Notes under the pieces: generated by a model
Databases searched by the model: none
What the model was told of the DNA's origin: nothing
The model's input: only the letters and a program-made list of their open reading frames with translations
Shown here: piece by piece, positions 2,336-61,910 of the stretch
Numbering within the stretch: position 1 is the first letter of the stretch
Layout: the number at the start of each line of letters is the position of its first letter
Made by a program: the position numbers and the translations under genes
DNA from: Nautilus pompilius
Lineage: Eukaryota > Mollusca > Cephalopoda > Nautilida > Nautilidae
Assembly (NCBI GenBank): GCA_018389105.1
Contig: JACATO010001065.1
Location: forward strand, 310,001 to 374,000
Direction: 5' to 3'
DNA: 64,000 nt

Positions 2336-5300
2336 ATGTTCTACCGATGATGGAAGTAACCTTGAAGTTAAAAATAGTAATTTGACATACTGATGATTTT
2401 CTTTGCAAATGATGTTGGTTGTACCTTTTAGCTAATCTTTCCTATGTCATGGTGACTGGTGTTTGTCAATTTATGCTAATATTATGCAGCAGCAGTGGTT
2501 GCATTAATTGGAAGTTTTCTGTTACACACACACAATACATTAATATGGAGACATCTTTATAATTGGCCTACAACTAAAAACTCAACTAACCTTTAGCACT
2601 AGTTTTATTTTCAATTCACCTATATAATAAGTTCAAACATTTTAAATTTACAGTAAATCATTTGCATAGTAATTGTTGTATGCCATAATTTTTTTTTTGT
2701 ATTTTTACTGTTCTCTTTTTTTAAGAACAATAAAATAATGTTATGCAGGACATACTGAACTTTTACCTTTACAATAAATAATACTGATAACCTCTTAGTC
2801 TACTACAAGCTGATTGTATTCTGTCACACACTGGCTGCTGGTATCTGCCTACACATAACTTTTTCCTATTGTCAGCGAGAGTCTATTTTTAGTACACACA
2901 TTGTTCATTTGAATTTTTGTGTTCTTTTTATTATATATGGAAATGTTAGCATTAAACCCCTAATCTGAGGAACGCTGTCTTGGCAAATAATCCTATGTCT
3001 ATAATCATGAAGAACCACATTAAAGAGGTAAGTTCAGTTTTCTCTCTTTACAGGCTTGAACCTGTCCTTGCACCATCTCCAGCCAAACGTTTCTACTTTG
3101 AAAAGTAGATGTTTTCTTAAGTTAGTGCTGTGATTTTCTGAATACTGTACTGGAATTCTTCAAAACTGCAGTTCATATTTATTTATCTTGTTTCTTGAAT
3201 TTTACTTTTTAGAATCTTTTTACGTTTGTAGAAATCAGTTCTTAAGTCTTCGGGTTTAATTTGGGGTTGATAGAATGTAGTCTATGGAATCTCACTCAAG
3301 AAGAACATTTTCATAACTTGTTACCCTAAACTTCTTTAGAGGAAAGGGCTTGTCTTCACTTTTCTAGAACATTGGTATAACACAGGCACCCTTTTCATTA
3401 GCATGTTTAATGTCACAGGGTGCAAGCAGCATGATGCTTATGTACACAAAATACACTAATAGCCAAGAACATTAAATTAACATGAGAACATTTTTTATTG
3501 TGTCCAATGTAATGATGTTTTTTGAGAGGAAGAGTTAAGTAGCAGTATATCTGGATGGTGATTTTAAGGAAAGCTTCATTTTAGATTGCTGAATTTTTCA
3601 CATTCTATTTGCTCACCATTGAGCGCTAGGTTTATATTGTAAAATCCCCCATTGTTATCAATACTTCTTTAAACAGGGTTGAATGCATGCCTGCTTTTAT
3701 TACCATAGTTTGTATCACAAGAGGTTTGGCTGTTAGATCTGAAAATTAAAAAAAAATAATACTTGAATGATGTTTAGCAAATAAGAATGAGATAAAGCAA
3801 ATACTAATAGATAGCTGCTTGTACTTAAAATATTAGGTTAATTTGGAAAGAAAACAATAAATTCCATCTGCTTGATTTTGTACTTACAATATGTTCACAA
3901 TCATGCTGCTAACGTTGTTCACAACTTGGCATTATACCTGATGACTATATTTCCAGTATTACAGTGATGTGTGGTTGATTCTGAGGGATTATAGTTAAAT
4001 TTTATATATTTAAACTGTACAAGATATAAAACAAATCTGGATTACTAATGGTAATTCCATGCCCAGTTTCTTCTGCTAGCAGTGGTTATCAATAACCTGA
4101 TTCATTAGAAAACTTGTAAATTTCTGAAACCTGCATCCTGCACCAGTACATGACTTAACCATTCTGAAAATATAGAGCTTGATCAAGATGTTTGTTGAGG
4201 TATATATACTGATAGTCAAACGCTGTTTTTCCACTATAACGGTGGACCAGATGTCGTGTTCACATGATTTCAACATCTAAACTTATCCCTTGACTGCTGT
4301 CTCCGTCAATCTGAATCTTTGCACTGATACTGTTACTAAAGTCGAACAAAAACCATGAGCTTGACATGCATTTAAGGGATGTAACAAAATTAAATGTTTT
4401 CATAAGTTAGTTTAGTGATATCCTACATACTGTACATCTACAGATTTGTTGCTTAATCTCAAAGTAAATTTTGTTATCGTAAATGTCAAGTATGTTTTTT
4501 TTTTTCTTTATTTGTAATTTCAGTTCAATATTTTCAGAGCATCTTAGTTTCTTACAAATGGGGATATGTGATATTTAGTACCTTGTTCTGTAAGTTGAAA
4601 ATTTTTAATGTTTATTTCTTGTCAAGAATTTTAGCTTATATGATGATTTATCAGATCATTTAAAATTGACATTAATAAGTTTTCCTGGAGCCTAAATCTG
4701 AGTTATTGTACAAGTAGCTGAGTGGTGCATTTATTTATAAACCTCAGTTTAAATTATCAACTATGAACCAAAAGAATTGTTGTGCATGATTTTACAACTT
4801 TCTTCTGAGGATAGTAAAAAGTGGAATGTTTCATATACTGTATGATAAATAGATAGGTAATAAACCAAAATTGATGAAAATGCTGTAATAATAATATATT
4901 TTGAAAAGTAACCTTAGCAAAATATGTAAAGCATCAACAAAAGTTGAAAGTGCACAGGTATTATCTCCAAGTACTGTTTGTCAACAGTATCAGTATCTCT
5001 GTATCATTCATTTACAGTTGAACTGATGGAACATAACTGTTCTTTAATTTTAAGATTATTTTATTTTGATCACAGATTCCCCCCCCCCTCAGTCTTATTT
5101 TCCAGATAATTTTGCTTGAATACTTAGTACATATTTTTTACATTTCTTTCTACTTTTGCCTAAAATGATAAAATGGTATGCATTTTTTTTTTTGTAGGAG
5201 GTAACAGCTTTAAAAATCTACAAGTATATTAATTTTAATGATCCTACTAAATAAATTTAAGAAAGGTAAATAAATTTTGGATGAAGATTCAAGTAGCTTA

Positions 5301-14600: not shown

Positions 14601-17600
14601 TCTTGGTTAATATACTGCTGAAGATCACAATAAATAATCTAACCCTTTAGAGGGTTTGACATATGTGAAAGAACATTGTAACAGAGCTGCAGGTCAGCAG
14701 TATGGAGTAAACAAGAAGCAAATTAACAACTGGTGCAAAGGAGACAAACTGCAACAACAAAGAAGTCCAAGAAGGCAATCATGCAAGATGGCCAGAAGTT
14801 GTACATGACATAGAGAGTTGGGTGTTAGAACAGAGGGCACATGCTGAAGTGTCAGTACAGTACAAATTTGTGTAAAAGCAAGGAACTTTCCAAAAAGCTG
14901 AACATTGATGATACCAAGGTGGCCCATATTGGGGTTTTGGTTTATGCACAGAAAGCACCTATCCACCAGAGCATGGACGACAGTCACCCAACAGTTACTG
15001 AGTCACTACCAAAAGTATATTATTGACAACTTTAGACAGTATACAAAAGACACTCAACATGAATATAACATCCATGATTGACAGATAATCAACATGGATG
15101 AAGTACCACTAATTTGTTTCATGCCTATGTCTCAGACAGTCAACCATGTTGGACAAAAGACAATCAACATTTGAACCAAAATGTGCAAGAAGGCCAGCTT
15201 TACAAGTTCTGGTAGTTTCTGCAGCTGGTGATAAGCTTTCATCCATGGTGATTTTCAGGAGAAAAATATTTCTGAAAGACAAGTTCAAAAGTGGTATAGT
15301 TATTATAGTCAATCCAAAGGGATGGACAGATAAGCAGGTTATGAATGAGTGGTTGAACAACTGCTATAGAAAGAGACTCAGTGGCTTCTTCAAGACCAAG
15401 AAGGCCATCTTGGTTATGAATTCCATGTGTGCCCACCTTACAGATGATGTGAAAGAGAAAGTCAAGGCAGAGAACTCTATTCCCAATATCATTCCAGGAG
15501 GCCCTACCAAAATTCTTCAGCCCTTCGACATTTCAGTCAACAAGACAGTTAAGGTCAAACCGCACTTGGATCATCTAAGGAGACCATAGTCTCACCAAGT
15601 CAGGATGCATGAGACAGGCAAAGCTGACTGACATAACTGAACACCCAGCTTGGAAGAATGTTCCAACCTCTTTATTATCAACAGATTCAGAGAGGTGAAG
15701 ATCATTGAGCTATTTGTGAGATTAACATGGATAGTGATAGTGACAATAACATAGATTTTGAGACAGACTGAGCCATTCCACTTAGATCATCATTCTCTTC
15801 ACCTATTACACAGGATGTTTGATGGATTTTTGGAGGAACTTTTAAGAAGTGTGTATTGTGGACAATATTGTGACATTCAGGACAGTGAATATTTAAATTT
15901 TGTACCTTTTAAAATATAGGACCTTTTTAAATATATGTTGTGATGACTTATTTGACAGTCTCACAATAACAGGAGATTAAATGTAAATAGTAACAGTTTA
16001 TTTCAAAATAAAATATGATTTGTGTAATTGGATAATCTCTGATGATTTATTATGATGCAGTGAGTTGATATGAAATTATATTTACTTAAAATGTGTGTAA
16101 AACAATTATTGATGAGAAGATTTTGTTACTATTTATTTTGTTACATGTATTGCTTATGTACAGTTGCATAAGTAAATGTAAATTTTAAAGGATAAAAAAT
16201 GATTTGGATTATATTCCAGTGCAGCTTAAATGTGAATGAAGGTTTGACTTTGCACTGTCAGAATTTATGTCATGAATTCCTGAGAGATTAATCTCTGGGG
16301 AAAAAAAACAAGTTTGTATATTGTTGTACTATTTTTCAGTGATGCCATTATGATTCCAGTTATCAACTGTCTGACAAGCTTCTATTCTGGATTTGCAATT
16401 TTTTCCATGCTTGGTTTTATGGCTCACAAGAAAGGAGTTTCAGTTGCCAAAGTTGCAACTGATGGTAGGTAATCAGAAACATAGGAAAATAAGCTAACTA
16501 ATAATGACATACAAAAATGTAATGTTTCCAAGAATCAGTAAAAGAAATATGTGCACATTTACATACATATAGTTTATAAAGTATCAGAGGTGGCAGAAGC
16601 AAATATTATTTGCATGAAGGTGAATAAATTTCATGATCATGATGCAGATATTATAAATGTAAAGTTACTTGTCAATCAATCAATGTATTTCTGAAATGTA
16701 TGGTACATTGAAATAAACAGTGCCATAGCAATACAATTTTAGCTGAATGCTGGCAGTTCTGAGATGGGACTTATAGTGGTACCACTCCTTTTATTTTCTA
16801 GGGAAGACTGGTTTCATGTTTTTGGTGTCTATGTATGGTTCAAAATCAAGAGTTTATATGAACTAATAAAACATTACTGTAGTTTAAAACAAAAGAATAA
16901 TTTTCTATGTCTATAAAATAATAAAAGGAGAAATATGTAGTTTATATCCTGAAGGCCTCCTAAGGATAATATTCACTTATTCTCTGACTGTAATTAACAA
17001 GTATTTGATTACACTAGATAACAAAAATTTAGTTAACTTGATTTCTTTACATTTTCCATGGCATCTTTCTATGTTAAATTCAGTTCTACCATTGAATTTT
17101 GGTAAATGTCAAGTATATTAAAAATAATCATACTATTATAGTTGATAGAATGAGTGCATGATACACACCACCCTAAAAATCCCTAGAATTTTCTAGAACA
17201 GTCTAGAGCTTTCCAGAAATTCTAGCACTTTCTAGAAGTTTCTAGAACTTTCATCTGTAAACCAAGGTATATAAACCCTTACGCACACTCAGCCAAGTAT
17301 GAAATCGCATTTAATGGGTGATTTTTTAAAATTCTGTTATTAGATAAGAATGGCTGGATTTCAAAAATGCAAACTCTCTGCAGACTCATTTTGTTATGTT
17401 TGTGGATTCTATATTGACCCAAAGCAAGTAAGAAACATGATCACACAGAACAATAAATTTTCACTGGCCTATGAATCATACTTTTGAATGAAGATTGGTG
17501 ATCAAAATAAAGCATGGGCACCTCATGTGGCTTGTGGAACATGTAGATCAGAACAAGAAGGATGGCTAAGAGGAGATGTAAAGCAATGCCATTTGCAGTC

Positions 17601-20600
17601 CCTCGTATTTGACTTGGTGAGAGCTTAAGTGTCTCATAGATGGCTGTTACTTTTGTCTAATGAATGTGTCAAGATTCAGGAACACCAAAAATTGGCATGA
17701 TATTGTTTATGCAAATATTCTATCATCCATTCCACCAGTTCCACACACTGATGACTTTCCAGTGTCACAGCCACAATCCAAATCCAAAGAAACATTCCTC
17801 ATCAGAAAGTGAAAATTCACCTGTAGATGAAAACTATAATTCTGACTTAAATTCAAAGAAGCCTCATTTTCCAAATCAGCAAAAACTGGATGACTTAGTA
17901 CGAGATTTAGGTTTAATAAAATCTAATGCTGAACTTCCTATATCCAGGCTGAAAGAATGGAATCTCTTGATAGCAGTTGTAAATCTACATCTTCAAGAAA
18001 GAAGCATGACAAATTCTCCAGATACTTCTCGGTGAATGGCAAATTGTGTTTCTGCAGTGACATTGATAGCTTGTTTTACGAAATGAGTATTGTGCTCAAT
18101 CCTACTGAATGGCGTCTCTTCATTGACAGTTCAGCGAGAAGTCTCAGAGCAGTCCTTCACAATGGAAACAAATATCCATCGATACCCATTGGTTATTCTG
18201 TACATATGAAGGAGGATTATGAAAATACAAAGTTTGTGTTAGAGACAATTGACTACAAAAAATATAACTGGGATGTTTGTGGAGATTTTAAGATGATTGG
18301 TTTTTTGAAAGGACTACAAGGAGAATTCACAAAATATTCATGCTTTCTCTGTCTTGGGATAGTCATGCCATATCACAGCTTTACAGAAGAAAAGTGTGGC
18401 CAGCCAGAGGAGATCAGTTTATTCCTGGGACACAAAATGCTAAATACAAGCCCTTGGTGAAATGAGAAGAAATCCTCATGCCTCCACTGCACACAAAACT
18501 GCAGCTTCTGAAGCAGTTCATTAAAGATCATAACACATTCGTGAATTTTTTCCAAATCTTTCAGAGGCAAAAGTAAAAGATGGGATTTTTGTTGGGCCAC
18601 AAAAGTTGGTAAAATGCTCAAATCAGAATAATTAGAAGAAAAGATGTCAGAACAAGAAAAGAGCATAGAAAGCATTTCATTTATTTGCCGAAAATTTCCC
18701 TGGAAACAGAAGAAGTGAAAACTATATACAATTGATTAAGGATGTAACCAATGAGTATTAAAAGCTTGGATGCAGAATGTGTCTCAGGCTTCACATCCTT
18801 CATTCTTAACTAGATTTCTTCATAGACAACATCGGGGATTTCAGTGAAGATAAATGGTGAGAGATTTCACCAAGATGAAAAAGAGATATCAGAGAAGATA
18901 CAATGTCAGAATGATGGGTGACTATATCTGGGGTCTAATTCGTGATGATACTTCAGTGCATAGAAGGAAAATCCGAAAAGTTTTGCATTTTTTATTTCTG
19001 CAACTGCAATTTTACATTTTCACTGTACTTAAGAATTAAATAAATGTGATGAATAAACTTTTTTCCTGAGTTAAAATGATTGTTTCTTTTTGGTTTGGGA
19101 GAAATTAGTTGTGCCCATATTATCAGTAATGATGTGTTAAAATGTTAAAAGTGACATTCTGAGTGAAAAACTGACACCTTAGAAAAACCAGTGCTGTGTT
19201 AGTAATCAGCTCACCAAAACTGACCGTAACAATTGAAAAATCAGGATAACTTTTTGAAGATTTGTTTCACTGTGTTATCAGTTTATTTAAGTTCATACAA
19301 ATATTAAAAATATTTATTTAAAAATATATTGTGCATGAAAATACAACACTAGACTAATTTAAATTGAAATATTTGTAAAATTTTTGAAAAGATAAATGTA
19401 CATTTATTTATTTATTTTATTTTTACAGGACCAGGTCTGATTTTTGTTGCTTACCCAGAAAGCTTAGCCAAGCTGCCCATATCTCCATTGTGGGCTCTGC
19501 TCTTCTTTATGATGATGTCTATGGTTGGTCTCAGCACCATGGTAAAGTATTAGTCTTTTTTATGTCAATTAACAATGATAACCGTTTCTATGGAAATTGA
19601 TCTTCACAAGCAATGAGTTCTGTTTGGGAGTAGATATACCAAGGTGAGACAGCTACATCGTGTAGTTAGAGATGGGGAAAGTGTCAGAAAGACTTATGTA
19701 CTTTGAAAACAGCCAGGCATAACTGATATCCGCAGTGCTTCATTGAGGATTCAAAGTGAGAGCAAAACGGCTTTCTTCTTCTTGGCCGCTATAATTGATA
19801 AAGCTGGTTCGAGATTCAGAATTCTCTGTAGTGCATACGAAGTGTTTTTTCTGATTACATCAGTCACCCATAAACATCCAGGATTTTAAAGAGTCTATCG
19901 CTTTTAGGTATGGTGCTTCAAGGAACTGTAGAGGTCTGCTTTAGTATTGCTTACAGATCAAAAAGTTGTTACTTTAGATTGTCTTGTATGTTAGTGCAAG
20001 TTAAACATTCTCCTTAGGTGGAGCAGTCATGATAGGATTCAATAGATTTGCTGATTTTGCTTTCCCGCTATTTTCTTAGCAGCAAATAACACTTCTTTGG
20101 TGGACTATGGCAGGTAGCTCTTTTTCATGGTATTATTGAACAATATAACTATCATATGGTTCAATGTGTATAGTGGCAAAATGAGATCCCTGTGTCCTAT
20201 GCTTTGTTTGCGGTCATTGTTGCTAGTCTTTGTTCAAACAAAGGGATCAATTGCGATGCGAACAGACTGTATGTATGCATCTACTGAGAACAAATAAAGT
20301 AAAAGAAAAGTTCCCGCTTTCTACATTTGCAGGCACTGACTTTTATTCCACCAGTTACACATTTCATTGTAATCCGCAATCTATACACCACTGTATTAAA
20401 GAATGGTAAATGGATATTGATACATCAAATGTTAAAAGTTTATTAATTATTTAATACAGGAACTAAAATTAAGACAAGGAAACTATTTGTTTCCTGTGTA
20501 TAAGAAATTGCTTTATTTTGAATGATGTTTATCGTTTATCTTGTTCAAGTGCCACTTTAACAGCCACGTATTTAGATATATTTCATTATTCACTCTAATT

Positions 20601-40700: not shown

Positions 40701-43700
40701 AATTATATCTCTAAAGTACTAACTTTCCAAAAAAATAAAACTCTGAAATAACAATAACAATAGTACTAGCACATTACTGTTCATGAATACACTGTAATGA
40801 TCAGAGTTAATACATTTATATCAATTACTAAAATAATCTTAGATTACATTGCAACAGACAAAGTTACCATGACATTATTCATAGATCTTTTACTTGTCTA
40901 ATGAAAATCTAACTTAGTATTCTGTTGAAATTTTATCATCAACAAGTGAATTTAACAATGCAAATTAAGAAAAAAATATCTGAGTCTTTTTATCCATTGA
41001 TTTCATTTTTTAAAGCTTTTTCTCCCCATTATTCAGGGATAAATGAATGTTTAACTCTTGTTTGTTGTTTTTTTTTGTTGCTCTGTTATGTATAACAGCC
41101 AGCCACTGAAACTTATGATGAACACTTTTCATACTTTCAGAGATGCAATCCTGGTTCCGACCATTAACTGCCTGACAAGCTTTTATGCCGGATTTGCCAT
41201 ATTTTCCGTTCTTGGCTTCATGGCTCACAAGAAAGGTGTGTCTGTCGACAAAGTAGCCGAAGATGGTATGTGGGATCTCAGTCCTTTCCAATGGCACTGA
41301 TTTCAAACTTGAAAATAAAAATAAGCTTTCATTCTACAACTTATTTCTGCCCAATTTACTATTTCAAAATTTTAAGAATAAAAACTGTTTACCGGGCAAA
41401 TATTTTGGTAAGAGTCAGGTACACAGTTTACTGTTTATTCTATCATTCATGAACTGTTCAGTTTAGTCTCCTTTCATTTTCTTTTTTCTTTTTAGTATAT
41501 AGAGAACTATGAATACAGTAACAAAATTTGCATGTTACTTTACATTATATAATGAAAAAAAAAAATCTTCATTATCTCCTGCAGGTCCAGGGCTTGCTTT
41601 TGTTGTATACCCAGAAAGCATTGCTAAAATGCCTGTTGCACCTTTATGGGCCATCCTCTTCTTCATGATGATGTTCATTTTAGGATTTAGTTCAATGGTA
41701 AGTCAATGAATTGTCAAGGTGAGATCAGATAACAAATTTTCAATGCATTTACATGTTTTAATTATAAGTATGGAAGTAGCTTGTCAGATGTTACTTCATG
41801 GAACTAAGAAAACAACAACAAACACCTTTGGGAGTTTCAGTACTATCTACAACCACATTGATCACATCACCCTGCAGCTAATTATTGTCATTTTAGGGAA
41901 AGTTACGATGTCATCTACTACCACATTGATCTAATCACCTTACAGCTAATTATTATTTTCTTATGTAAAGTTTGTGTCATTTACCACAGTGATCCTATCA
42001 ACGTGGAGATAATTGTTATTGACTACTGGAAGTTACAGTACTAGATGAAATCTTAAACATTTTCTCTGCAGCAACAATTACACTACTGCTGTAAGTATGT
42101 GGTTCAGTTTTTATGTGACATCCTCAGTTGCAATCTTTCAAACTTTTGTTGAAAATTTTATGATTTGTTCAGAAAGGAAGCAATAGTAATTTTTTTAAAA
42201 ACATCCAAACAAACATTTGATTTGGAAGGTAAAATACAATAAAATTCAGTAGTTTTTTTTTGTTGCACAGGTTTGTTCTCTGCTAACAGCTAGAAGCGCT
42301 GCTTTACTTTCAGTTTTCTTTAGTGGAAACTGTTTTCACCTCCCTGGCAGATGAGTATCCACAACTGTTCAAAGAAAGATGGAAATCAATATCTTTTCGC
42401 TTGGTGGCCAGTGTTTTATTTTTCCTGCTAGGTTTACCAATGGTAACACATGTAAGTACATGTTAAGGTAGTCTTTTAAGGTTTTTAGATCACTTGTCAC
42501 TTACACTACTTAACAGCATGGACGTTCAGAGATAAAGAATATACATTTTCATAGTTTTCTTAACAACAGATTTTTTACATAATGAACCAAAGTGCTCATA
42601 TTTTCACGTTGTTACTGTATGTTCCTACTAATTAACAATTGTATAAGAAAGAAAACTGGGTGACAAAATTGTACATTTTTGAAGGGATTTTCCTAATAAT
42701 TACCCACAAGTGAAAAAAACAGAAAATTTCAAAGCCCATAGCAGAGTTTTTTTTATATCAAAGACTGTAGCCATATTTAGAAGGAGAACTTAGTTTGCTC
42801 TTAGAGAAGTCAGGAACACTAATAATTAATTGATTCAAGTGTTCAGTTAGTTCATCAGCCTTGTTGTTGTTTTTATTTACTACATTTTTCTAGTTTGCCA
42901 CATCATTTTTAGGGAAGTCAAATGAGTTCTCTAAAATAAAAGATTATCAGGTTATAAATTTAAAGAAAAGGCATAAAAAATGTTCTATTTTGTTTTATGT
43001 TAAATTATTAATCATGCAGAATATTAGGAAGTTAGTTTAAAAAACAATTTAATTTTTAAGGATAATCTGATATACCATTTAATGCAATTAGTATCTTGCT
43101 ATTTATTATATAGTTTATTTTAACCTAAATAATTATATGTAGGTTGTTTGTTTTTTCCTACAATGTTAAAAATTGGTGATATCAAATAGACAAGTATTTT
43201 TAAGAGTATTTTCATTTGATTTTGCTACTTTTATAAGTCTCTTTTTTCACAGTATATGCATTAGTCTTTACATGGCATAGTAACTTAGTTTTATACAGAG
43301 GTCTGCACTAACCACACCAGTGTTCAACCTAATTTGTTCATCTATTTATTAAACTAAAAACTCTTTCAACAAAGGCACTACTTGTGGATTTTGGTAAAGC
43401 AGTTTCCACTAATTTTAAAAGATATGTACACACACTCAAAAGCAGAAGAAAATTTTATCCATCATTTGTCAGCAGAAAGCTTATTGCTTGTATCAAGGTT
43501 TGGTAGATTTTGACAAAGAATGCAAACTTATCATAAAAAAATAGTTGTCACCATCAACTTTCACAACTGATTTTAAGACATCTTCAGAATGCATGTTTTT
43601 TGTTTGTAAATTTAACACTTCAATAGATTGTAGAAAGTTTTCATTGAGGTCAAATCATTTTCAAGGTAAGTAATGCTGGACTGGAGCACCATATTTGTCA

Positions 43701-46700
43701 CTTTTAAAGAACTATTTGTTTTATCGTATGGGAGTTTTCCTAAGCATGTATTATTTACCTTGAAGCCATAGAAAGTCTGAAATTTGGTTTTGTAATTTCT
43801 TTTCCTTATGTTTGATACAACACCAAATCCCATTGTAGATTTAATTAACTCATTTTCTAGTTTCTTGATGGGGTTTTGGACAAAATACATGAAACATTCA
43901 CTTAGAGAAAGTTTATCTGAAAGTAATTCATTCTGTTGATCTTTTACAAAATCCAAAATGAGTTCTGTGCAGTTGTCTTCACTTTTCTGTTTTAACAGTT
44001 GGCTAACAAAAATGCAAGTAATCATTTGCATTCAAAAGAGAAGACCACTTTTTGGGAACATGACAAAGTAAATTTTTGTATTCCATTTCAGCAAAATCAA
44101 AGCATCTTTTCAATATTTTAACCTTTTGGCTGACTGTGCAACACAAAATTTTCCGCATAAACAAAAATAGGTGATTTTGGTCAAATCATAGGTGCTGAGT
44201 TCAAAAATGCACCTTAAAACATTGTATCACGTCTAGATTTTTTGTTATTGTGATATGTATATAGGCGTCCAAGTTCAAACAGCTGTAGAAATTGAAGGAG
44301 TGAATGGATGGAGCTGAAATCTGGTGAACAGATGGCAGGATGAATTCTCAGTCGAGTTCTATATCTGTTTCAGGATGAACTGGCCCAGTTCTGGACTAGT
44401 CAACCTGGGACATCAGATGTAAGGGACCAGTTTTCCAGGTCCAATCAAGGCAAAATATGTTGATATCAACTCGGATGTAAGGGGCTTGTCAAATGAATGT
44501 GTATTTACAACATAATTGAGGACAATAAACTAGTCAGTACCTACCATATGACAGATTCTTTGCCCCTTACCATGGCATCCAGATGAGGTTGTGCAAATAA
44601 TCCAAATAGTTTTTGTTATGTTTGCAGCAAATTTACCAAAAAATCACAGCAGAGAAGAATTACAGATCTGGTCAAAGTTGCATACCATTCTTACTTCAGT
44701 CAAGCTTGAAGACCAGGACAAAAGTTGGGTGCCTCATAAATTGCAATACTTGCTATTCTGGTCTCACAAAATGGATGAAAGGCACTGGAAAAATGCCCTT
44801 TGCAATTCCAATGGTTTGGAAAGAACCTAAGGATACTCAACAGACTGTTACTTTTGTATGACAAAGATGTCTGGGTATTCAACAAAGAACAAACACAAAA
44901 TAGAATACCCTGACATCCACTCTGCTATAAAGCCTGTTCCTCACAGTGATGAACTATCCATTCCAGTACCACCACCTAACTATGAAGATCTTGAAGTTGG
45001 CAGTAATTCAGAACCGGAAAACAGGAAGTGGTCATCTGACAGTGATTAAAACCCTGATAAGGAGACTAACCCACATTTGATAACACAATCTGAACTCAAT
45101 GACTTGATTCGTGATCTAAAACTAACCAAGGATAATTCAGAATTGCTTGGTTCAAGGCTGCGGCAATGGAACTTGTTGGCACCTGGAAGACTGATCTCAG
45201 TTTACAGGAATCGTGGTGAAAAACTGGCCAGCTTTTTTGAAATCAAGGACAATCATTGCTACTGTACAGATATCAATGGGTTGATGAATGAACTGGGTTA
45301 TTATCATAATCCGGATGAGTGGCGGCTGTTTATTGATTCTTCAAAGCTCAGTCTCAAGGCAGTTTTGCTGCACAATGGCAATATTAATCCATCTGTCCCA
45401 GTGGCCCATGCAACTGGAATGAAAGAGTCATACAAATCCATGGAAACTATACTCAATGCCATCAAATACAGTGAACACAATTGGAGCATATGTGGGGATT
45501 TAAAAGTGATTGGCTTACTGGAATGCAAAGTGGTTTTACAAAGTATTGCTGCTTCCTTTGTCTGTGGGATAGCAGAGCCACTCAGCAGCATTACCAAAAG
45601 AAAGAATGGCCAAGAAGAGAAAGATATGTACCTGGTGAAAGCAGTGTAATGCACCAACCATTGCTAGCTCCTGAAAAAATTCTTCTACCACCACTGCACA
45701 TCAAATTAGGTCTAATGAAGAATTTTGTGAAGGCTATGAACAAGGAAGGTGATCAGTTTAAGTACCTCAGAACAAAATTTCCAAAACTGAGTGATGCCAA
45801 ACTGAAATAAGGGATTTTCATTGGGCCTCAAATCAGAAAAAAACTATTAATGATCCAGAGTTTGAGAAGCAGTTGACTGATTTGGAACTTAATCCTTGGC
45901 AATCCTTCAAAGCAGTTGTCACTGGTTTCTTAGGCAATAAGAAGGGAGAAAACTATATAGAGCTGGTCACCAAACTAATTGAAGATTACCATGCGATGGG
46001 TTGCCGCATGTCACTTAAATGCTTTTATATATTCACACTTGGACTTCTTTCCCCAGAATATGGGAGGCATTAGTGATGAACATGGAGAACATTTTCATCA
46101 AGAAATTTCCTACATGTAGCAGCGATATCAGGGCAGATATAATTCAGCTATGATGGGAGATCTTTGTTGTTTTCTTCAGAGAGAATCGAGTGCAAGCTAC
46201 AAGAGACTCACGTAGTACAACACATTTCAAACAGAAGAAAGCTTCTGAATAAGCTGATGCCGTATGTGATCGAACCATTCAAGTTTCTCACTGAAAAATA
46301 GTATAAAATCTTGACTTTTACTGAGTGGGACATATTATGAAAATCTTTGAGGTACTTATCCTTTGAACTATTTAACTTGCAATAACAAAAGATCTAAATG
46401 TGCTAGAGAAAAAACGGATGGTACCATTGAAATCAGCGTGTAAAAATTAACCAGAAACACCTAATTATACATATGCGGAAAACAAAAGGTTGAAATTTGT
46501 TGCATAGTGTAATTATTGATTCAACGTGGCAATTGCAATTGGCAGGGTTGATTTGTTTTAAACATTTTTTTAATTTACTTTTGAAAACAGAATTGTGATT
46601 TCCATAACGTACAGGAGGTTTATCGGCCTCGATGTACCTGGTTTGTAACACTGTTGGATGTTTCGTCAGAATCAATACTGCATTTTTTACCATATAAGAT

Positions 46701-56739: not shown

Positions 56740-57150
56740 TTATTTTCTAGTTTTTCTGGAGGTAAAGGTTCTGGTATACCTGGACAGGGCGTATTGCCGA
56801 CAAGAGGTCTGGATAGAAAATTTATTTTTTATTTTTAGATTGAACCCCTGTATGTTACACGAACAAAAGTAACAGTCATCACTGTGATTTTGGGGTTCCC
56901 TCCAAATCATAGGGATCCCAAAATGGAGAGACCTTTTCTCACCTTGAGACCACTGTCGGAGTTCTTCCAAACAAAACGAACACACCTCATGTGGAGTTCA
57001 GGACTTATCCTGGTCACCAAGTTTCACACCAAAATACCCACAATACATTTTCTTAAAGTCTGTGACGTTTCTTTGCTGTTTCTTCACTACAAAGTTCCCA
57101 CAAATGTAGCAGAAGTTACCAGGTGCATTAAGACAACCCCTCGCAGCCAT
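56740..57150 (-). pseudogene. Family X, copy 3, N-terminal fragment
   Basis: From ATG 57150 on the minus strand: M-A-A-R-G-C, F-C-Y-I-C-G-N-F, Y-F-G-V-K-L-G-D-Q-D-K-S, then a TGA in place of the usual Trp, H-E-V-C-S-F-C-L-E-E-L, and G-I-P-M-I-W-R-E-P-Q-N-H-S-D-D-C-Y-F-C. The downstream two-thirds is missing or unrecognisable. A TTTTCCCACA end-like sequence, read on the minus strand from about 57427, may be its 5' terminus. Confidence 0.65.
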
Positions 57151-57639
57151 TTAGTACAGTTATAAACAGAATAAAACCACCAAGGAAAAGGAGGAAAAAA
57201 AAGTAAACTTCTGCAGAAAACGACACATCTGGGAAAGTACACTGGTTATGACAGAACCTTCTCTCACAAAGATCTGATTGCGACTGAGTCCAAGTAGGGG
57301 GCGTGGAGAGAGGGGAAACAAGAGAGAAAAAAAATCAAAATTAATTATAATTAATTCTTTGTTCAGAAGTTTAATACAATGATTCTGGAGATATTGAAAT
57401 CGAAAATTTGAGTTTGTGGGAAAATGGTACGTGGTGGAATTTTTAAACTATTTTTACTGAAAACAGCACCCAAAAATCTATAAGAATCAGCTGTTAGTTT
57501 TCGGACAATTTTTCCATTGCAGGCCTGTGTTATTTCTCTCAGACTGACCATTTCTGCATAAGATCATAAGGAGAATTTAAGTAAATTTGAAATCTACAGA
57601 TGTTGCAAAGGTTGCATAAGTGAATATTAAGCTACCAGG

Positions 57640-58140
57640 AGAAATGAAATTTACTAAAACAGATGGAAAAAATGTTGGACATCTGGAAAGTATAGAAAGA
57701 AGAAATGATGCAATGTGTGAATGTTGCAATCAACCAGAAAAAAAAAAGGAAAAGCCAAGACATTTTGGTACATAACTGGGCAGCAGAGAAGAGAAGTTGA
57801 CAAAACTCTGGAATTTACAAGTGAACTAAAAACCAAAACTAACAGAATCGTTCACTAAATTTGAGGAATACTGCAATCTGAGAAAATATCTTACTGTGGA
57901 ACAAAATAAACTTTTTCTCAAGCTAAAGGATACCAAGAGTTAGTCAATCAGTACATTAGGGAAATTTGTTCACTAGCCACAACCATTTGATTTGGTGATC
58001 CTAAAGATAGTCTAACCAAAAGTAGAATTGTCTGCAGCATCATCGAGCAAGTCATAAAGGAGAGACTTTTTCATGAAACAGATCTGGATTTAACTAAACT
58101 GTTGCAAGTCTGCCAAGCTTTAGAGCTGTTGGGAGAAGTG
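57640..58140 (+). pseudogene. Ty3/gypsy-like gag remnant, left of the nested insertion
   Basis: Plus-strand frames show a degraded gag: T-K-F-E-E-Y-C-N-L-R-K-Y-L-T-V-E-Q, a V-N-Q-Y-I-R-E-I-like piece near 57940, F-G-D-P-K-D-S, and D-L-D-L-T-K-L-L-Q-V-C-Q-A-L-E-L near 58085-58130. Many frame changes. A decayed LTR retrotransposon that resumes at 61911. Confidence 0.5.
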
Positions 58141-61100
58141 GTGGTAATGTCACCCAAAACCCATCATCCTTCCCACCCACACGCAAGTCCTGCTTCGCTT
58201 GCTGCCGCACCATCGCCCCGTTACGATGCAGTCAATGTGGCAATCTTTTACACAGCTCTTGCTCTGGCCTCTCACAGGCCGCAGCCCAGCAGAACCACCA
58301 TTGGTTATGCTCTCAATGCCACCTCACTTCTACCCAACCACCACCACCAAACTCAACCCCCCCCCATCACTGAAATTTCCGAGCCACCTCTGCATCAGGC
58401 CCGAAAATCCCTCCGCATTCTCCAAAGGAATGTTGATGGAGTGTCAACTAAACTAGGCAAACTTGAATCCCGCCTAATCACCGATCGCATTGATGTCTGC
58501 CTTATCCAAGAGGCAAAATTCAGAGCGTGTGATACTACTCCACACCTCCATGGTTGCAATGCAATTCGCCTAGACCGTCCCAACAGACACCGCGGGGGAG
58601 GTCTCCTGACTCTCATCAAAGGCGATTTGATCTTCCAACAACTACCCACCAGGCATCTCGGGCACTGCCGTGGAATGTACCTCCATCCGCGTTCGCCTGT
58701 CCCGCCGAAAATGGGCTTTTATTCACAACTTATACATACCCCCATTTCGACAACCTGATCAACCAGACCACCTCTCCCTAAGCCTTCATACCCTCCAACC
58801 GAACACTTTCATTGGCGGTGACTTTAATGCTCACTCATTACTGTGGGACCCCTTTCAACCCGCAGATAGCCGTGGCTCCGAGATCGAAGATCTTCTCCTC
58901 TCCCAAACCTTAACCCTTCTAAATGATGGATCAGCCACTACAATCAACCATGGAACCGGCGGTTCTAGTTCCCCAGACCTCTCTTTGGCCCTCTTCCTGG
59001 GCTAACAGCTCTGAGTGGACTGTTGGCGAAGACCTGGGCTCGGACCATCTCCCAATTACCACAACACTGTGCTGCCGACTTGAGCACGTGGCTAAGGTCC
59101 ATCGAGCCCGGTGGAACAGGCGCAATGTCGACTGGTCCCTTTTCACCCAATCAATCGAAGAAGCCATGCCTAGCCTGCTCCCCACCCCATCCCTTGATGC
59201 TAGTGTCCGGCAATTTACTAACCTTCTGCTGTCGACTGGCCACAAAACAGTTGGCAAATCCAAATCCGGCGCACGAACTCGCTGCTGGATGACACCCAAA
59301 GTGAAGGCAGCCATCAAACGCCGCAATCACCTACGGCGCCACATCGCGGATCGCCGTGCAGAATGGATCGAGGCCTGCGCAACAGTCAACGCTCTCTCCC
59401 GCAAAGCTAAGATGTCCAAATGGACTGACTTTCTTTCCGAACTAGAGCACAGCCCTGGCGCATGATCCGCTCACTCAGCGGTGGCCCAGACTCGAGTAGC
59501 TTTGTTGAACCTTTGCAGCACAATGGTCGCATAATCACAACGAACGAAGGCAAAGCTAACGCCTTCATGCACCATTACGCCGCAGTCAATCGCCTATCAC
59601 TCGACAAAGACGATCGAACAAAGAGACGGCTTGTCAAGGAACTGCTCCAGTCTCCCACCGCTGACGACAAGAGCTGCTCTGACTTCTCCCTTCGGGAGTT
59701 AGACGACGCAATCCAGCAACTTTGCCATGGTGGTGCTCCAGGCCAGGACAACATTCCCCCTTCTTTCCTCATCGCCCTTGGCCCACTGGCACGCCAAGAA
59801 CTCCTTGAAATCTACAACTGGAGTTTCAACTCAGGTCGATGTCCCCAAACTTGGAGAGATGCGGCCATCCTCCCGCTGAAGGAGGCAGGCAAACCCGCAA
59901 CCGATTTTTCCTCCTTTTATCCTGTCAGTCTCACATCCTGCATCATGAAAACCCTGGAAAGGCTGGTTCGCAAACAGCGATGCTGCGAAGACCAAGTCTT
60001 GCGTATAATGCAGAAAATCAGTGACAGCTTTCAGGCGGAAAAGCCCAATCGGAGTGTCCTCGCCCTTCTGGACTCCTCCAAAGCCTATGACAAAGTCTGG
60101 CGAGAGCTCATTTTCACTTCATTGTCTACGGGCTTACTGAGAAAGATGGGCCGCTGGATTTTCAACTTCTTGTCCAACCGGCGGGCCCAGATCCAGATAA
60201 ATGGGCAATTAGGACAGTTCCTTGACCTCCGACAGGGACTGTCCCCAAGGCTCCATCCTCACCCCCCCTACTGTTCCTTCTTTACATCAATCACCTCCAC
60301 AAGGTGCTACCTTCCGGGGTTGATATTGCCATGTACGCTTATGACGTGGCCATCCTCAGCAGTCACCCTATCAAGGAGCAAGCTGAGAGGCGGTCAAAGA
60401 GGCCGTCACAGCGGTCTCAGAATGGAGCCGTAGGAAAAAGTTGGTCCTGAACGCCGAGAAATCGGAAGTCTGCTTCTTTTCCACCCAAATTTCTAGGCAT
60501 CATCCTAGATCGGAGCCTCTCCTTCGGTCCCCACACAAAGGCAGTTACCAGCAAAGTAGCGGCCCATTGCCGCATCCTGGCCTCCCTAACATCTCAAACT
60601 TGGGGCTGGCGAAAAAACAGTCGCCGCAAAGTTTACTGCTCCCTCCAACTTTCACTTCTCAACTATGCAGCCCCAGCATGGCAACCCTGGCTTTCCGCTT
60701 CCCGACTCAACCAACTGGACTGCGCTCAGAACAAGGCCCTTCGAATAATAACTGGGCAATTGCGGTCTACCCCCTTAGATGCCCTTCGCCTAGAGGCTGG
60801 CACCCGCAGCTACCACACCACCTCTAAAATCCTAATTGCAACCTCTGCCGAAAAAGCTGTACGTCTACCTCCTGAGCACCCTCGATATCAAACCCTTGCA
60901 TCCAACTGTCCTCACATACTTCACCAGCCAAGCTGGCGCTCCACATCCCAAGCGATTGCCTTGTCCTTCCCTGAAAACTTCTCCATCCAAGCCCCACTAC
61001 ACAACCCCATACACTGCCCATGGGACTATGGACCTTCTCATTGGCGTATCTCCCCATCTCTCACGAATCCACTTTCCTCTCCTACCCCCGCCTCCCTTTA

Positions 61101-61910
61101 CGAGGAAACTCTCGTGGCCATCCGCCAATCATCATCCAACCTTACCATCTACACGGCCTTCAATGGCCGACTCAACGGGGGTGCCACAATGGTCGTCACA
61201 AGCGGAGACCCAGCCCATCCCTCCCTCATTCTCTCCAGATCTGAAAAAGGAGCTCCCTTCACGTCTTCCTTTTGTGAAGAGAAAGCAGCCCTCCAACTCG
61301 CTCTGCTATGGCTTCTCTCTGACTGTCCCGCCCACCGACAGCCGCTCTCTAACCCTCTCCCTCCTACACCATTCCACCGACACCCAAGACCTCCAGTCCC
61401 TCCTCTCCCAACACTGCTTCCCCACCCACATCATGTGGATCCCCGGCAATGAATGGGCCGATGCCGCTGCCAAGTCTGCTACCTCCAAACCAGACCCTCC
61501 CAGACCTACCGACTACCAGTCTGCCAAGGCTGCCCTCCAACACCTCATCCCAGACCCACCACCCGTAAACTGCTTATCCGCTGAAGTCTACTCTGACTAC
61601 AATTGGATGACTGACAGCAACGCGACGACAAACTGGCGGGATGCAGTGCTACTGAGCCGGCTCCAGTCTGGTCACTGCCCTCGTCTTCAGGCATATCAAC
61701 ATAGAGTCAACCAATCAGCCAACCCCACCTGCCCCATCTGCGGAGAGGAGCCTCAAATGGTGTCCCACTGGCTACAGCGGTGCCCTGGTCTTGTCTCCCT
61801 CCGCCACTCAAGGCACTTGTCTCGCAGCCAGCGGAGGTGATAGCGCTAGCCAAGAAGTCCTTTTAAGGATACTCTCGGGCGCTATGTCTCTACAACAACA
61901 ACAACAACAA
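58140..61910 (+). mobile_element. Non-LTR retrotransposon (I/RNase H-bearing type), nearly full length but dead, nested in a gypsy element
   Basis: GC-rich against an AT-rich background. Domains in order: a PHD-like finger (58182-58320; C-x2-C, C-x2-C, H-x3-C, W-x2-C-x2-C); an endonuclease (58405-59060; Q-R-N-V-D-G, G-D-F-N-A-H at 58817-58834, S-D-H-L-P-I near 59040); a reverse transcriptase (59462-60433; L-L-D-S-S-K-A-Y-D-K-V-W in motif A); an RNase H-like domain (about 61150-61480; W-I-P-G-N-E-W-A-D-A-A-A); and a CPICGEEP zinc motif near 61730. The RT motif at 60334-60345 reads Y-A-Y-D, not Y/F-A-D-D. Several frameshifts. The 3' end is a CAA repeat (61891-61910). Confidence 0.75.

Follow-up and report, generated by a model that had tools for sequence, protein, structure and literature searches.

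An array of heat-shock elements as the probable promoter of an old DNA-transposon subfamily in Nautilus pompilius

A long array of heat-shock elements (HSEs) in the genome of Nautilus pompilius very probably did not arise by local accident but forms the heat-shock factor (HSF)-responsive part of a transposase promoter, namely that of one subfamily within a transposon family here called family X. Judged from sequence comparison, it most likely represents an HSF-driven promoter that was ancestral to an old subfamily of DNA transposons. The array lies in a stretch of 64,000 nucleotides (contig JACATO010001065.1, positions 310,001 to 374,000; G000:C1020:310001-374000), which we refer to as the window, and its relatives were searched for in the 728-Mb (727.6-Mb) genome.

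The window contains two SLC6-like transporter genes in tandem (Pfam SNF; paralogous exon pairs). The first copy of family X sits in an intron, the flanking exons of which end at approximately 16470 and start at approximately 19426; this intron is supported by the resemblance of the exons to those of the tandem SLC6-like paralogue in the window. The features are as follows, in window coordinates.

17006..19278, + strand: copy 1 of the family X element, HSE subfamily, in the intron of an SLC6-like gene and in sense orientation; ends approximate
17008..17030, + strand: left terminal inverted repeat, ATTACACTAGATAACAAAAATTT, from a comparison of the ends of ten copies
17186..17252, + strand: HSE array of alternating GAA/TTC units in 5-bp steps, at the equivalent position in other copies
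17253..17267, + strand: conserved 15-bp spacer between array and TATA box
17268..17275, + strand: TATA box, TATATAAA, unchanged in 37 of the 60 distinct copies
17289..17294, + strand: candidate initiator-like TCAGCC, common to many copies; a putative start site, rather near the TATA box
17350..19036, + strand: family X coding region, presumed transposase, with in-frame stops and frame changes
19039..19057, + strand: two AATAAA polyadenylation signals (19039, 19052)
19253..19275, - strand: right terminal inverted repeat, approximate, from a comparison of copy ends
44149..46482, + strand: copy 2 of family X, with inverted repeats near its ends (44149-44250, 46380-46482) and no HSE array
56866..57521, - strand: 5' part of family X copy 3, preceded by a terminal repeat of the copy-2 type (57422-57521); no HSE array

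An HSE is recognized by at least three inverted nGAAn units at 5-bp steps. The sequence-only reading that first drew attention to the array had described 14 such units, 11 of them perfect, with a single 1-bp slip, and all of this was verified. It had also judged a chance origin very unlikely, which is borne out by a dynamic-programming (DP) HSE score of 28.5 for the array, whereas none of 60 dinucleotide-shuffled versions of the window exceeded 12. The second-highest site of the window scored 9. TATAAA begins at 17270 and thus fixes the position of TATATAAA; the ATG is found at 17350. The further statement that copies 2 and 3 lack the array is correct, with scores of 3 and 6 in 1.2 kb of upstream sequence, but the comparison says little because both copies belong to subfamilies different from that of copy 1 (identity to copy 1 of 42% in the longest shared piece of copy 2 and of 36% in a short piece of copy 3).

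Similarity among most copies begins at window-equivalent positions 17005-17014 and stops at approximately 19266-19280. Thus, the array falls within the element, some 180 bp in from the left end. The ends of copy 1 were obtained only via comparison with other copies; local alignments between its own two flanks for terminal repeats did not beat shuffles. The composite left and right strings of the HSE subfamily align as inverted ends with a score of 86, which was reached by 8 of 1000 shuffles, and they give moderate support to the view that the subfamily is a DNA transposon with terminal inverted repeats. The inverted arms of copy 2 comprise 56 and 26 nt at matching distances. A gapped alignment of its termini scored 163 in one test, versus a shuffle maximum of 154, and 291 in another, the latter being above the 95% level only (shuffle maximum 330).

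The family X protein showed no Pfam family above the cut-off and no relative among PDB sequences (best E 1.9). A low-confidence structural model (pLDDT 40.5) contains a beta-beta-beta-alpha-beta-alpha stretch and the invariant residues D317 and D371, by which a DDE-type enzyme is only suggested; a Foldseek search with this poor model gave no match at an E value of 0.001 or better. No relative of the protein was found in the viral contigs.

Genome-wide, the perfect six-unit HSE occurs at 16 separate places (18 overlapping matches per strand), the reversed pattern at none. We inspected 8 kb around each of these places. Eleven of them lie directly 5' of copy-1-type family X coding sequence (L020-L025, L027, and L030-L033), and no family X match was found within the 8 kb inspected at the other five. 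A local oddity, absent from all related copies, as the sequence-only reading had considered, is incompatible with this distribution. In a promoter alignment of 12 copies, the flanks were common and the array variable. All 11 loci have the 5' flank, the array, the conserved spacer, and the TATA box in common with the window copy; except in L033, the same applies to the coding start and to the leader, in which TCAGCC or a variant of it occurs. In L033, unrelated sequence follows directly 3' of the TATA box, by insertion, substitution, or rearrangement, and the family X coding sequence resumes further downstream.

A sample blind to the promoter was drawn by using part of the copy-1 protein as a query against the genome. 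From 3256 candidates, 150 were scored, and the best 40 protein matches were taken, with the window itself excluded and a few near-identical pairs counted. Of the 40, 29 were examined over the 551-bp stretch in which the promoter was expected; the other 11 were loci already in the analysis. An array with a score of at least 11 was present in 35 of these best 40 matches (24/29 plus 11/11), which answers in the affirmative the earlier question of whether it belongs to the element consensus. As a control, the window was sampled in 114 chunks of the same length, of which none reached 11 and one scored 9. Three matches (L070, L071, and L078) have kept the TATA flank, with the array reduced to a short remnant, and two (L079 and L081) showed no promoter within the 551 bp examined. 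The L079 contig does contain an exact flank, on the same strand as the protein match but some 2 kb upstream, and this promoter may have been displaced.

Copies of other family X subfamilies carried the array in 0 of 11 cases, with a highest score of 6. These copies have 48-59% protein identity, and their open frame at the match is 292 aa long in one and 478-618 aa in ten. With 35 of 40 on one side and 0 of 11 on the other, the array is a property of one subfamily. The arrayless subfamilies nevertheless have mostly longer open frames, and hence the array is not required for the success of the family. Open frames of 516-617 aa were found in five copies of another subfamily, three of which were aligned and have 95-96% protein identity. 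The subfamily represented by L106-L110, L095, L096, and L098, with frames of 516-617 aa, had no HSE array in the copies examined, and L095, L096, and L098 have the apparent left ends TTACACTGGTCAACAAGTATTTTT. The 24-base flank that includes the TATA box was found at 141 places with up to three mismatches (reversed control, 0), and where two TTCTAGAA cores stand in tandem, at least 19 of the 22 genome places belong to the element.

Six-unit HSEs were also observed in other surroundings. The locus L029:4032-4084 (G000:C960 near 361931-361983) is not a transposon; its 11 perfect HSE units have spacers unlike those of the element, a possible first exon comes next, and the locus is perhaps a host HSF target gene. 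Long arrays therefore occur outside the element as well. L026 and L034, near position 4000, are paralogous places with a common six-unit HSE (GAATTTTCCAGAAAATTCTCGAAATTTC) and no family X. The six-unit pattern is furthermore contained in 15 viral contigs.

We propose that HSF trimers, activated by heat or another proteotoxic stress, would occupy the array cooperatively and fire transcription from the TATA box, so that transposase would be made. Stress-driven transposase could have led to a past burst of the subfamily, after which the copies would have decayed, leaving strong HSF sites across the genome. In mouse MEF cells, heat induced an artificial TATA promoter 6-fold when it had a single HSE and almost 400-fold when it had five (PMC4326385); arrays of the size found in the element should therefore be ample. 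The Nautilus genome gave three matches to the HSF DNA-binding domain, the best with 87.5 bits across all 100 model positions. HSFs also function in gametogenesis and development, and germline expression benefits a transposon. On these general grounds, HSF might drive the element mainly in the unstressed germline or early development and not on heat shock. We regard this as rather doubtful, since very long arrays would be expected of strong inducible promoters; the sequences themselves fit both readings.

The design of the array was analyzed in 71 loci scanned for the promoter flank, of which 60 distinct copies remained after removal of seven duplicates and four loci without a flank within five errors (L079, L081, L083, and L087; arrays are nonetheless present in L083 and L087). 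A score of at least 9 was reached by 57 of the 60 copies, with DP paths of 4-26 units, 4-15 of them perfect. The distance from flank to flank equals 5 modulo 10 (±1) in 47/60, a count in which distances of 5, 15, and 151, probably due to misplaced flank matches, were retained among the 60. The copies thus differ mostly by whole 10-bp repeats, that is, by half-site pairs. In the aligned set, the shortest flank distance is 35-36 bp (L021, L023, and L032, with six perfect units) and the longest 105-106 bp (L030 and L033). Such length changes look like repeat slippage, and repeat dynamics appear to explain part of the regularity. Tandem Repeats Finder likewise detected the array of copy 1 as a tandem repeat with a period of 10 bp. 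Period and length steps are what one would expect if the array were a mere 10-bp minisatellite that resembles HSEs and has no regulatory role.

This explanation is unlikely in view of the position, phase, and spacers of the array. An array is found within the 5' 450 bp of 12/12 elements and within the 3' 450 bp of 0/12, and is thereby confined to the promoter position. Counted from the TATA flank, the last half-site on the 3' side ends at one identical base in 45 of the 57 arrays; in a further 10 it ends at +4 or +9, the array being shorter there by one or two 5-bp units. The 5-bp phase to the TATA flank is kept in 55 of 57 (offset -1, 4, or 9). According to a study on HSE sequence (PMC8379338), the gap between TTC and GAA is a pyrimidine-purine step, whereas the dinucleotide between GAA and TTC is free. 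In the 57 arrays, tail-to-tail spacers (TTC to GAA) are pyrimidine-purine in 256 of 265 cases, TA accounting for 207, compared with 86 of 294 head-to-head spacers (GAA to TTC). Spacers had played no part in finding the arrays; the spacer and spacing counts are not independent, as the copies are related and near-identical pairs are included. The two spacer classes of the arrays differ in the way that HSF binding predicts and follow the HSF grammar of PMC8379338. In the window array taken by itself, the variability of spacers did not significantly exceed that of core bases (Fisher p = 0.11).

HSEs, a short spacer, and a TATA box also make up the layout of an hsp promoter, and the sequence-only reading had raised the possibility that the promoter was captured by the element from an hsp gene of the host. 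From 50 HSP70 matches, three intron-poor hsp70 loci were chosen, and their upstream stretch was examined. Two of the promoters (L112 and L114) resemble that of the element in having an HSE upstream of the TATA box, with three and four perfect units, but the HSE comprises four units only and has other spacers; the third promoter has no HSE beyond a pair. No similarity beyond chance words was detected between the element promoter and any of the three. Capture of an hsp70 promoter is therefore unlikely, and from this comparison with three hsp70 loci we consider capture from a host heat-shock gene improbable. Growth in place is favored by a sister subfamily (L101, L102, L103, and L105), which has GAA-TA-TTC-TA-GAG (CA in L101) about 14 bp before TATAAAAG. 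This is a three-unit HSE with one mismatch, present in all four copies examined, which hardly differ from one another and so amount to a single observation. The site is possibly a proto-HSE. In a wider, tentative scenario, a proto-HSE in the element's own promoter would have been enlarged to an array of variable number (about 20 half-site positions in the longest copies, 15 of them perfect) that fired under stress. Most of the strongest HSF sites of the 728-Mb genome would stem from the resulting burst of the element, and stress transcription of nearby host genes, here the SLC6-type transporter, may be wired through it.

Many DNA transposons carry subterminal transposase-binding repeats, usually located about as far inside the end as the array is from the left end of the element, but the idea that the array consists of such sites, serving mobilization and not transcription, is highly improbable given that the right end is free of it in 12/12 elements, that it is absent from 11/11 copies of other subfamilies, and that it stands at a fixed distance to the adjoining TATA box and matches the HSF grammar.

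The subfamily appears to be old. Relative to their majority sequence, the promoters show a median divergence of 6.1% downstream of the array in 60 copies and of 8.4% upstream of it in 59; the corresponding values of the window copy are 8.0% and 10.5%. The core of the window array has changed at 3 of 42 positions. It has decayed about as much as its flanks and thus gives no sign of present-day selection on the window copy. A tblastn search with a sister protein matched the coding region of this copy in four pieces with changing frames, three of which contain stops. The sequence-only reading had suggested that the copy is, or once was, driven by HSF. An HSF-type promoter layout that is borne by the element and would serve it agrees with this claim. 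The further suggestion of that reading, a potential stress-inducible internal promoter on the sense strand of the host gene's intron, concerns a copy with a broken coding region and no sign of present-day selection. From its sequence, the window copy appears to be a broken relic that may still bind HSF in the intron of a host gene.

An internally deleted form of the element has one common junction (window-equivalent 18334/18760) and still possesses the HSE promoter. It was found in 5/11 elements and in 6/29 promoter loci, of which 21 were callable, with two loci overlapping between the sets. The loci with the deleted form are L021, L024, L025, L027, L031, L043, L051, L052, and L062. It looks as if the deletion derivative itself had multiplied.

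Mobile elements that exploit stress are already known from plants, slime moulds, and Caenorhabditis. In Caenorhabditis, the mRNA of a Helitron transposase is reported to increase upon heating, dependent on HSF-1, and Helitrons supply many genomic HSEs; in that study, HSE enrichment in Helitrons was limited to Caenorhabditis among the genomes tested, and high-density clusters were found only there (PMC6927752). Like these Helitrons as described there, family X is an animal DNA transposon with clustered HSEs. It differs from the rolling-circle Helitrons, to which it is unrelated, by its inverted ends and by an array fixed before the TATA box.

For the heat-responsive COPIA elements of Brassicaceae, two reports (PMC5059998, PMC3907296) are on record, and the HSF site of ONSEN is reported to have originated through duplication of a proto-HRE. 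ONSEN/COPIA78 and family X both have HSF sites in the promoter of the element, and growth from a proto-site is hinted at by the three-unit site of the sister subfamily. However, in these accounts ONSEN/COPIA78 are plant LTR retrotransposons with about four to six nGAAn units, whereas family X is an animal DNA transposon with the much wider range of units given above. In DIRS-1 of Dictyostelium, as described in PMC2685390, the inverted terminal repeats contain a heat-shock promoter. It is likewise a mobile element with a heat-shock-type promoter but a slime-mould retrotransposon. As is characteristic of heat-inducible transposable elements, the HSF sites of the family X subfamily are part of the element and common to its copies. 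It resembles the Helitron HSEs, ONSEN, and DIRS-1 in its mode of action as proposed here, but judging from the evidence it is identical to none of them. It would add to these cases an animal DNA transposon that is apparently unrelated and whose array is unusually long and variable. A literature search on heat-shock elements and transposons, which covered titles and the starts of abstracts and had most subscription journals outside its scope, gave no description of the element, and a search of the same kind by its terminal motif returned unrelated papers only. The copies differ in the number of HSF sites and let the stepwise repeat growth of stress promoters be examined in one genome. They also open a second question, namely whether the burst of such an element rewires the host heat-shock response.

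The window contains further repeats. A DDE_1 transposase fragment at 15113-15589, pogo/Tigger-like by eye, is located in the same host gene as copy 1. A tandem repeat with a 68-bp unit in about two copies occupies 41845-41972, and an element bearing a reverse transcriptase (RVT_1 under the curated cut-off), which by eye is jockey-like, extends from 57991 to 61840.
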